DNA from: Crambe crambe
Taxonomy: Eukaryota; Porifera; Demospongiae; Poecilosclerida; Crambeidae
Direction of reading: 5' to 3'
Assembly (NCBI GenBank): GCA_963924555.1
Contig: OZ004591.1
Span: forward strand, 3,906,001-3,970,000
Length of the DNA stretch: 64,000 bases
Positions 686-36,215 of the stretch are shown here, one piece after another (the stretch's first letter is position 1; each line of letters opens with the position of its first letter). A program made the translations under genes and the position numbers. Under the pieces are notes generated by a model. That model saw only the letters and a list, made by a program, of their open reading frames with translations. It had not been told where the DNA came from and ran no database searches.

Positions 686-948
686 CTCATTTGAGAAATG
701 ACCCTGTCGGGGTTGGCCCCTAAACGGTCCAACTTGTTGATGAAAGCGATACAGGGGACGCTATAGCGATTCATCTGCCGGTTAACGGTCAGGGTCTGAC
801 TCTGGACTCCACCCACAGCACACAGCACTAGAACAGCTGCATCCAGGACTCTCAAGGAACGCTCCACCTCTATGGTGAAGTCCACGTGACCCGGTGTGTC
901 AATGATATTAATGTTTGTGTCCTTCCATGAGGTGTAGGTGGCAGCTGA
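686..948 (-). CDS. GFM1: Mitochondrial elongation factor G1, exon 5
   Basis: This is an internal exon of mitochondrial EF-G1, the GTPase that moves tRNA and mRNA during mitochondrial translation. It begins with SAATYT after an acceptor (ACAG, 952-949) and ends in phase 2 before a donor (GTACAT, 685). It carries the G3 motif DTPGH (about residues 115-119 of the assembled protein), the [10 protein letters not shown] segment and the G4 motif NKLD (about 169-172). The gene continues off the left edge. The preceding exon, ending GITIQ in phase 0, is found at 35,504-35,578, so the upstream intron appears to be about 34.6 kb long. Confidence 0.93.
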
Positions 949-952
949 CTGT

Positions 953-973
953 GGGGGGGGGGGGGGGGGGGGG
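953..973. repeat. 21-base poly-G (poly-C in the GFM1 transcript) at a 3' splice site
   Basis: A run of 21 G on the plus strand is 21 C in the GFM1 pre-mRNA. It lies directly before the ACAG acceptor of exon 5, so the pyrimidine tract of this acceptor is almost pure C. The length is likely to vary between alleles and between sequencing reads. Confidence 0.9.
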
Positions 974-33429: not shown

Positions 33430-35503
33430 GACTATTTGCTAGTATCAGTTAGTAGAGGCAGAGACAGGAAACAGTCACATGTCTTGTGGTTGCATGTCCT
33501 ATGATTGTATCCCCATAAATGGGCACTACTCAAGTTGGCTGCACTTAATAGAGGATGAATTTCTAAACAACAGCAACTTCCTAAACTAAATTGAAGGGGT
33601 AGCCTAATATACCTCTCTGGGTTTGCATGTAGTGGCATTGCTGTAGCTAACACACTGGCTCCTGAGTGCACTAGTTAGCCTACACATTATGGTCTATTTC
33701 CACAATTTTAGCCTCTATATGTAGCTAAAGAGTAGAAAAACAAGTTGTCGAACAAAAAAAGTGAAAGCATGGTTTTAAAAATGTGCATGCTTGAGTGATG
33801 ATCGTTTATTAGTACATGCGTTTATTTATAACCATAAAGAAGCAATCTCACTATATCACTGTCTTATGTAAACTTTGACTTCTCAAAAATTTTTGCCTCG
33901 GCACCAAAGTGCCGGCAGTGCTGGAGGCGACTATGTGTGCGTGGTACGTACGTCCTATTAGTAGCACGCGCAAATGAATGCACGTGACCTTGACCTTACA
34001 GTCACATGCATAGCTCAGCAGTTATTAAACGAGAGCTAGATACAAAGCTATGATCGTCTGAAAAGGCAGCAAGAGTGCCTACAAGAAAGTTAAATAGCAA
34101 GAAGAGAAGCTACAAAGTCACTAGAGTAGTAGGCAAGACAAGTTAACAATCGTGAGAAAGCAGAAAGAGAGCCAAGCAGCGAGAGCAAAGGCAGGCAAGT
34201 AAACGATCAGTACTGGGAGCAAGAAAACCCAACATGAAACAGGAAGAGTAGAGGGTATAAAGCTCAAGATTCTAAAAAAGCAGCAAGAGAGCCTACAAGA
34301 AAGCCTTAATAGCAGAAGCTACAAAGTCACAAGTAGGTTAAAAGTCCTGAGAAAGAGCCAACAAAGCTAAGCAAACAAGCTATAGCAGCCACTAACTATA
34401 TCAGTTTGCTACAGCATAGAAAGTCATTGATGTGATAATTATAGAATAATAACATGTAAAATAAGATCTTCAGTCTTCAGTATAATTATATAGGTAGACA
34501 CAGCACAAAAGAAATCAGTGAAAATCAAAATAATAATGCATTATAGCTAAGTCTACTACATGCCGAGGCATCAAGTCCTTTTAAAGACAAACAAGAGAGT
34601 TAATACTTCTTCAAAAGGGGGTGTGCATAGCGAACTGTTGTATGTCCGTGAATAGAGGAATCATTATGGCACCTACTACAGTTAAATAACTGATGAGATA
34701 ACTTCTGGAATACCTTTCATTCCCTAGTGGATACAAATTGATGGAATTGATGGTGGGTACCACAAGGTTTCATATAGGGATAGGGTTGTCATGCTCATAC
34801 TCAGGCTCTAAAATTATGTGGAGACGGGAAACAGAGCCTGGTGTCCACTGTTCGCGCATGCACCAAAAATTGTCACGTGAAATTCCCGCGTATTACACTT
34901 TATGACGGTGTGTGATGTCATAGACATGTAACTACATGTACAAGCATGCGCTACAAGATTCTTTTGATAGGTACCAAGCTAGCTTCATATATCAAGGTAA
35001 GGACACTCTGAGATTCCCTCCCTCCCTCCCTCCCTCACTCCCCACAAATAATAATAGTCAACCCCCGTATGCAATATTGCTAGCTAGAAGATATTACTCC
35101 CAGCAGCTATGAATAATGAAAAACATCTCACACTGCGCATGTGCATGATTTCATGCACTTTATTGTCAAATAGTATACAAGTCTCTGGACCCAAAGTAAT
35201 ACACCTTCTTACCTGTTATAAGCTGCATGTTGCATGACACAGGCAGTATTGACTTATATAGCTGGTTGACTTACCTTATATTGATAGCCAGTAGCTCATG
35301 TGGCTATTGCTAAGTGCCAATGATAATTATAACAGTCTGACACAGGATAAATGCCCAGGCAAAATTACAGTTTGGCTGGCCATTTTCCTATAGGTCTGAA
35401 ACCGCTACAATAGAGGTTGACTGTGATTTGTTATAATTGGCCCTGCTATGGCTGACTTACTTACATAGCTGGTGCCTATGGTGCCTATGTTTGATCTACT
35501 TAC
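33430..35503. other. GFM1 intron 4, promoter-proximal part
   Basis: No exon is recognised. Around 33,981-33,996 a CACGTG box runs into two adjacent TGACCT half-sites. From 34,057 to 34,390 a block (gcagcaagag, gcctacaagaaag, agctacaaagtcac) occurs twice in tandem, separated by about 220 bp. Around 34,850-34,960 lie CACGTG and a CRE-like tgatgtcat. A short (TCCC) run is at 35,010-35,040. These are possible regulatory elements for the intron-borne genes, nothing more. Confidence 0.5.
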
Positions 35504-36215
35504 TTGGATTGTGATTCCTCGTTGTCTCTCCAGCTCCATGAAGTCCATTGTGGCTCCAATATTGTCCTTCCCCTTTACCTAAGGACAAACATCACCATAG
35601 CAATCATTCTGCCTTGCTCATAAAAGGTAAAGCTTTGGGGGAGGGGGGACGAGCTGAGCATCTTACTTAAGGCCCCAATACACAATGCCAGAACTTTATT
35701 AAGTCCATGCCAACGGTGGCCATTGTAATGTATTATAATCTATGGCAGGGCAATATCCTGCCATCACAAAATTCCAGCCATTGGAATGTTGAAGGGACAT
35801 ATATAAATGCTTTATACTGTCCAGCATCTTACTCATTCACAGCAGTATTTATCACTCCTCACCTCATGCATAGTCGCAATCCTGCCAGTATAAAACAGAA
35901 CCCTCTCTGTCAGGGTGGTCTTTCCCGAGTCTATGTGGGCAGAAATCCCAATATTCCTGATCTTGGACACATCTATCTACAGCACAGAGACAAAACATAT
36001 AGGCTCAGCAGACAGGGAGGGGATTTAATGCAGTCTCAACCTTAATACTCACAGGATTGGAACCATAGAACCGTCTATTTGACGCGATTTTCAAGACCTG
36101 CAATGAATAATTCAGACGATGGTGGGTTTGATCCACGACTATCTCACTAGATTACCCTTTTAGCACAAGTCCTACATAGGACGGAGCTCACAGACAGAGC
36201 TTGTAACACATTCAT
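35504..36215 (-). CDS. GFM1: Mitochondrial elongation factor G1, exons 1-4
   Basis: Exons at 36,156-36,215, 36,053-36,097, 35,863-35,976 and 35,504-35,578 all join in phase 0. Exon 1 starts [20 protein letters not shown], an Arg-containing, acid-free leader suited to mitochondrial import. Exon 3 carries the GTPase P-loop AHIDSGKTT (about 48-56) inside the EF-G signature [20 protein letters not shown]. Exon 4 has the switch I segment [12 protein letters not shown] and ends at a consensus donor (GTAAGT, 35,503). The next protein segment, SAATYT, is encoded at 948, which gives the very long intron 4. The start is inferred from frame and leader character. The protein works in mitochondrial translation elongation. 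Confidence 0.93.

Follow-up and report, generated by a model that had tools for sequence, protein, structure and literature searches.

The analysed window is a stretch of 64,000 nucleotides (nt) of the genome of the sponge Crambe crambe (C14:3,906,001-3,970,000), free of Ns and gaps, in which the GFM1 gene for mitochondrial EF-G1 is encoded on the minus strand. Its fourth intron is 34,555 base pairs (bp) long, and all five intact TRIM-NHL open reading frames (ORFs) of the locus, as well as one antisense ORF, fall inside it (949-35,503). The genome searched comprises 143.14 Mb in 119 contigs, of which C13, C14, C15, C17 and C19 correspond to chromosomes 10, 11, 12, 14 and 16. The published assembly of this species, built from PacBio and Hi-C data, has 143.20 Mb in 124 scaffolds (PMC12166358).

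The GFM1 gene and its fourth intron

The first five exons of GFM1 and the intron of interest are as follows, all taken from the gene model:

36156 to 36215, minus strand: exon 1, with the ATG at 36,215 and a putative targeting peptide
36053 to 36097, minus strand: exon 2
35863 to 35976, minus strand: exon 3, also covered by the EF-G match
35504 to 35578, minus strand: exon 4, ending GITIQ in phase 0, donor GTAAGT
949 to 35503, minus strand: intron 4, host of all the nested genes, with the L35Ae gene outside it
686 to 948, minus strand: exon 5, starting SAATYT in phase 0, acceptor CACAG

The hand-built model joins 20 exons into an open frame of 695 amino acids (aa), and all 19 introns have GT...AG ends; exon edges were picked by hand. 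Intron 4 runs from 35,503 down to 949, and the other 18 measured introns span 58-716 bp. The initial annotation had set the remaining introns of the window at about 2 kb or less, a statement that holds for GFM1, whose introns are the ones compared. A further exon, exon 21 (GKGEFTMEY...), was located near window coordinate -5,431 and stands outside the joined model; the intron preceding it is about 1.1 kb judged by position. The remaining exons lie to the left of the window, with short introns. Intactness of this essential gene is thus judged on the open frame and GT-AG introns over 20 exons and on a single locus, with exon 21 located and unjoined.

Exon 4 ends in GITIQ at 35,504 and exon 5 begins with SAATYT at 948, both in phase 0 and on the same strand, as first proposed. 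Directly after GITIQ the sequence reads GTAAGTAG, and ahead of exon 5 stand a run of 21 C (read as G on the plus strand, 953-973) and the CACAG acceptor. The proposal that the two segments are adjacent in EF-G1 proteins is borne out by an ungapped match to mitochondrial EF-G across the junction (E 8.5e-98, query 3-188 against 15-200 of the 6ydw chain). For this N-terminal part the match to ribosome-releasing factor 2 is weaker (1.9e-53) and that to EF2 weaker still (3e-28), and the later domains also match mitochondrial EF-G (1.4e-138, versus 1.6e-24 for ribosome-releasing factor 2). Judged by these matches, the host gene is mitochondrial EF-G1 (GFM1), rather than EF-G2 (ribosome-releasing factor 2) or EF2.

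A second, complete GFM1 locus elsewhere, a possibility raised in the initial annotation, was rejected. The genome search with a 186-residue GFM1 stretch (from KIRNIG) returned nine matches, four at the C14 locus and five on C19, the latter with 50-66% identity and hence paralogues. EFG_IV domain matches were found twice at the GFM1 locus and in four stretches at a pair of C19 places, and nowhere else in the genome. The TAG inside one C14 match stretch (3941495-3941581) arises where the match extends past the boundary of exon 4.

Long G runs occur on the plus strand of the window at 953-973 and 57,076-57,104; the first also provides the exon 5 acceptor with its pyrimidine tract. Another long G run, in the GFM1 sense, lies near window coordinate -3,275, inside the intron from -3,016 to -3,460.

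The nested genes and the origin of the array

Between exons 4 and 5 the following features were identified:

1503 to 3704, minus strand: TRIM-NHL copy A, intact, 733 aa, single exon (ORF, Pfam)
5682 to 6058, both orientations: TRIM fragments, 5682-5903 in the array sense and 5952-6058 inverted (blastn)
6781 to 8997, minus strand: TRIM-NHL copy B, intact, 738 aa (ORF, alignment)
10830 to 12563, minus strand: TRIM-NHL fragments in pieces, the last piece being the NHL part (ORFs, blastn)
13766 to 15994, minus strand: TRIM-NHL copy D, intact, 742 aa (ORF, Pfam)
17516 to 18547, both orientations: TRIM-NHL fragments, 17579-18547 in the array sense and an inverted match at about 17516-17634 (blastn)
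19493 to 21786, minus strand: TRIM-NHL copy F, broken, three ORFs (ORFs)
23677 to 27357, plus strand: 1226-aa membrane protein, single exon, antisense to GFM1 (ORF, Pfam)
27981 to 30191, minus strand: TRIM-NHL copy H, intact, 736 aa (ORF, alignment)
31207 to 33429, minus strand: TRIM-NHL copy I, intact, 740 aa (ORF, Pfam)

The content of the intron is therefore as initially described: five intact TRIM-NHL ORFs, one broken copy, fragments and the 1226-aa ORF are all present. The intact copies are single-exon, encode 733-742 aa and, again as described, all five lie on the minus strand, in the sense of GFM1. Pfam scanning of copies A, D and I identified N-terminal zf-RING_UBOX and zf-B_box domains together with filamin (PF00630) and NHL (PF01436), all above cut-off; the domains of B and H were judged by full-length alignment. 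The region in which a coiled coil would lie, between the B-boxes and the C-terminal domains (approximately residues 206-375), is present in the copies. Their best solved relatives are TRIM71 and TRIM2 chains, which match the C-terminal part. From family membership, the nested genes would encode E3-ligase-like recognition proteins in which the NHL propeller diversifies and the RING/B-box half is more conserved.

Among the intact copies protein identity is 79-92%, and blastn blocks are about 85-91% identical. The dN/dS ratios over the whole gene are 0.26-0.42; by part they are 0-0.25 in the B-boxes, 0.06-0.50 in the RING (from small numbers) and 0.35-0.63 in the NHL part. The description of the array as fast-evolving thus suits the NHL part best. 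Intact ORFs and dN/dS below 1 suggest that the copies are expressed.

The N-terminus of the 1226-aa protein is hydrophobic, and its last third contains about six hydrophobic segments; Pfam identifies Chlamydia-PMP repeats in the protein. The genome search gave 780 first-look candidates for its family; among the 38 scored, the nearest paralogues are 52-55% identical and lie on C8, C12 and C20. Matching database proteins number 905, one of them named from the sponge Halichondria panicea. PMP-repeat multi-pass membrane proteins were also noted on C8, C12, C16, C20 and C21, mostly as long open frames.

Searching the genome with copy I yielded 591 first-look candidates. Sixty of them were scored, and 62 match stretches were listed; 51 of these extend from residue 16 or earlier to residue 736 or later without a stop, i.e., as single-exon genes. 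Among the matches listed, copies occur on C17, C20, C11, C5, C10 and elsewhere, many of them clustered. Since both nested families have hundreds of first-look candidates, the array can be regarded as one sample of an expansion across the genome, which here came to lie in an intron. A tree was built from 30 of the 62 stretches: in it the five copies from the GFM1 intron fall into a single clade (support 1.0), linked to two C20 copies by a node with support 0.983; copies on C17 (0.889), C11 (1.0) and C5 (1.0) also group by chromosome. Synonymous divergence (dS) ranges from 0.16 to 0.32 among the nested copies, compared with 0.47-0.55 between them and the C20 copies. The single clade, its C20 sister position and the dS values together indicate that one founder entered and then multiplied locally; on these values, the entry into the intron is bracketed between a dS of about 0.5 and 0.3.

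Growth of the array took more than one duplication step, because copies A, B and D have blocks of ORF plus about 1.5 kb upstream that are 86-91% identical, but for H and I there is little similarity outside the ORF and roughly 30 bp upstream. The dS between copies A and D is 0.05 in the B-box part and 0.37 in the NHL part, a contrast that points to gene conversion. Hallmarks of a retrogene (poly(A) tract and target-site duplication) were not found, although old copies could have lost both. For the five intact TRIM copies, where A tracts within 600 nt were looked for, the only candidate was a run of 8 A following D; the membrane-protein gene has 16 A at its stop, yet the 880 bp upstream contain no flanking repeat of more than 8 nt.

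The resemblance between the nested copies and those on C20 covers the ORF and reaches about 20-43 bp upstream of the ATG; elsewhere there are a few short matches. All five nested copies carry the leader CTGCCTCTACTAACTGATA immediately upstream of the ATG (3708-3726, 9001-9019, 15998-16016, 30205-30223 and 33443-33461), and it recurs at three C20 places with 0-2 mismatches. Over the whole genome it has ten matches with at most two mismatches, including one each on C1 and C18, and the reversed control has none. As the ORF and this short leader are what the C14 and C20 loci have in common, no nest-specific control element was seen. Within the flanks covered (9.3 kb to the left and, past the last copy on the right, about 2.9 kb), the C20 sister array appears to be intergenic, although a host gene could have exons farther away. 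One neighbour encodes C2 domains plus a finger of the FYVE type (FYVE at cut-off), and the other is a multi-pass-membrane-like gene on the opposite strand, without a Pfam match. Nesting therefore appears to be no rule for the TRIM-NHL family.

Elsewhere in the family, three TRIM pairs on C5 are each 56,848 bp apart with identical scores (2264870/2321718, 2306656/2363504 and 2291214/2348062), pointing to a recent large duplication on C5 or to an assembly duplicate.

Integrity of the locus and probable transcription through the array

Very probably, the locus is a true nested array, in which TRIM-NHL copies descended from one founder and an unrelated membrane-protein gene occupy GFM1 intron 4, tolerated there by chance. 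Three observations support a single GFM1 intron as the host: the gene model is consistent with splicing, GFM1 has one locus and the sequence has no gaps. Intron 4 contains, arranged in tandem and with signs of gene conversion, the descendants of one founder from the genome-wide single-exon TRIM-NHL family. Together with the unrelated single-exon membrane-protein gene, these copies stretch the intron to 34.6 kb. Each nested gene would use a promoter of its own, polymerase starting at GFM1 would pass through the whole array, and exon 4 would be joined to exon 5 by ordinary splicing. The insertion would have been tolerated because the splice sites stayed intact.

Several points weigh against this reading. 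Splicing of GFM1 across the array is predicted from the genomic sequence, the exon edges were hand-chosen, and exon 21 is located yet outside the joined frame. The GFM1 acceptor placed ahead of the EPLILEPV exon, TTGTGAAG, is unusual, and its modelled position may be wrong by a few bases. The support from a second contig described below covers B, H, the D relative and the membrane protein, and not the GFM1 exons or copy I. Finally, the 3' ends of two of the five intact TRIM copies are uncertain, as no canonical poly(A) hexamer follows them in the next 900 nt.

An error of assembly or haplotype joining could have put the array between exons 4 and 5, since the region is repetitive, with intact copies at the blastn identities given above, and this is an error-prone type for assemblies. 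In the protein database, copies B, H and the membrane protein (each with 0 differences) and a D relative that differs at 3 of 742 residues all have a 1,008,879-bp contig as the longest one given for them. Because D differs, this contig is probably the alternate haplotype, and much of the array is thus present in sequence that is not identical to the window. Copy I finds at best 80% identity (among 8000 scored candidates sharing most words), unlike B, D and H with their near-identical relatives; haplotypes or assemblies may differ here, and there may be a presence/absence difference of copy I between haplotypes, or the contig may end at this point. The right-flank ORF had one hit, on a 1,775-bp contig, which does not help to show that the second contig spans the array. 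Against a misjoin are the absence of Ns or a gap, the long-read assembly with Hi-C and the presence of much of the array on the second contig. The two halves of GFM1 also keep the same order and orientation, with fitting phases and no residues missing at the junction, and copies so far apart should be separable by long reads. We consider such an error very unlikely.

It is extremely unlikely that GFM1 consists of two transcription units joined by trans-splicing, or that its 5' part is non-functional. The large separation and the sense-strand poly(A) hexamers, which could terminate transcripts, would fit such a split; however, ordinary cis splice sites stand at both edges, the frame is open through 20 joined exons and the searched N-terminal part has no second copy in the genome. 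Splicing of exon 4 onto the TRIM ORFs was also rejected: with exon 4 ending in phase 0 and two bases lying between AG and ATG, joining after the AG at copies A-I would break the frame. The leader CTACTAAC ahead of the ATG is present in C14 and C20 copies and absent from those on C17, C11, C5, C1 and C10 (30 examined).

The initial annotation had also proposed that TRIM poly(A) signals could truncate GFM1 transcripts. In the 900 nt beyond the TRIM stops, AATAAA follows only two copies, H (+184) and the broken F (+257), and ATTAAA is found for I (+57), F (+389) and D (+538, +890); copies A and B have neither. The signals thus exist for some copies only, and this pattern makes the threat to GFM1 weaker than claimed. 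Compared with second-order Markov expectations, sense AATAAA is not depleted in the intron (16 seen versus 15.3 expected; noncoding part 6 versus 8.3), and sense ATTAAA occurs 12 times versus 14.4 expected (noncoding part 11 versus 8.2). Selection against sense poly(A) hexamers was accordingly rejected, as neither count gave a signal. Antisense AATAAA is in excess in the noncoding part of the intron (29 seen versus 17.3 expected), and a AATAAAACAC-type tandem repeat at 6,446-6,723 may be the source.

These counts bear on functional nesting, in which the TRIM genes depend on GFM1 transcription or TRIM induction lowers GFM1 output. All five intact TRIM genes are in the host sense, and same-strand nesting makes concerted regulation straightforward to predict, as stated in a review (PMC4394429). 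However, the undepleted sense AATAAA and the apparently intergenic C20 sister array argue against such a role; we see no sign that the nesting is functional and regard this alternative, which would link a defence-like family to mitochondrial translation, as very unlikely. The initial suggestions that the position may protect the array from loss or tie its regulation to GFM1 likewise find no support here. The most likely reason for the position of the array is chance, rather than a function served by nesting. It is also very improbable that TRIM induction (e.g., by microbial challenge) interferes with GFM1 transcripts or ends them early, so that a defence-like response would lower mitochondrial translation by position alone.

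Outside the intron, GFM1 has the following neighbour:

36572 to 36853, plus strand: exon of the ribosomal protein L35Ae gene (PF01247, E 2.9e-41)

The GFM1 start and the L35Ae gene are divergent, separated by a gap at 36216-36571, an arrangement suggesting that they share a strong promoter region. An inverted repeat with two CACGTG ends lies in this gap (36,249-36,278).

Comparison with known nested genes

Several sponges and a ctenophore are rich in nested genes. Among sponges, 2432 have been counted in Aphrocallistes vastus, 3358 in Amphimedon queenslandica and 5032 in Sycon ciliatum, with 83 in Oopsacas minuta and 0 in Ephydatia muelleri, counts that depend on the annotation method (PMC10282587). 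Like those in Crambe, these sponge nested genes are intronic and many are single-exon; the excerpt of that paper describes glassin and totals, whereas the Crambe case is a tandem paralogue array in a housekeeping gene. The ctenophore Hormiphora has 2357 nested genes in 1654 hosts, many of them parallel to the host, and one figure illustrates four genes nested in one host, similar to the multi-gene nest in Crambe (PMC8527503). Nesting in Hormiphora is backed by Iso-Seq, whereas the Crambe case rests on genomic sequence.

Human genes offer further examples. MOB2 hosts the paralogues KRTAP5-1 to -6, a cluster of related coding genes in one host, as in GFM1; an NF1 intron hosts three coding genes (OMG, EVI2A and EVI2B), on the opposite strand, whereas the Crambe TRIM genes are on the host strand (PMC4394429). 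The Crambe genes, moreover, lie in one intron of GFM1, and all other introns measured in this host are short. The TRIM genes themselves resemble subfamily C (class VII/X; TRIM2, TRIM3, TRIM71 and TRIM45), the animal TRIM genes with NHL or filamin domains, and tandem expansions of TRIM genes have been noted (PMC3503706). The Crambe copies differ in being single-exon and in forming many arrays in one genome. Among the papers listed by our literature searches for sponge TRIM-NHL genes and GFM1 nesting, none treats this case or the large single-exon TRIM-NHL family of Crambe crambe.

As nested genes, parallel nesting and nested paralogue clusters have already been published, the GFM1 array is a large and clean new example: a multigene array inside a housekeeping gene, in the same sense, in a compact animal genome, and one that can be checked. 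With the un-nested-looking C20 sister array as a natural control, it could be used to test how, outside bilaterians, the polymerase and the 3'-end machinery distinguish nested genes from their host. The larger surprise may be how big the family of single-exon TRIM-NHL genes is in Crambe crambe.

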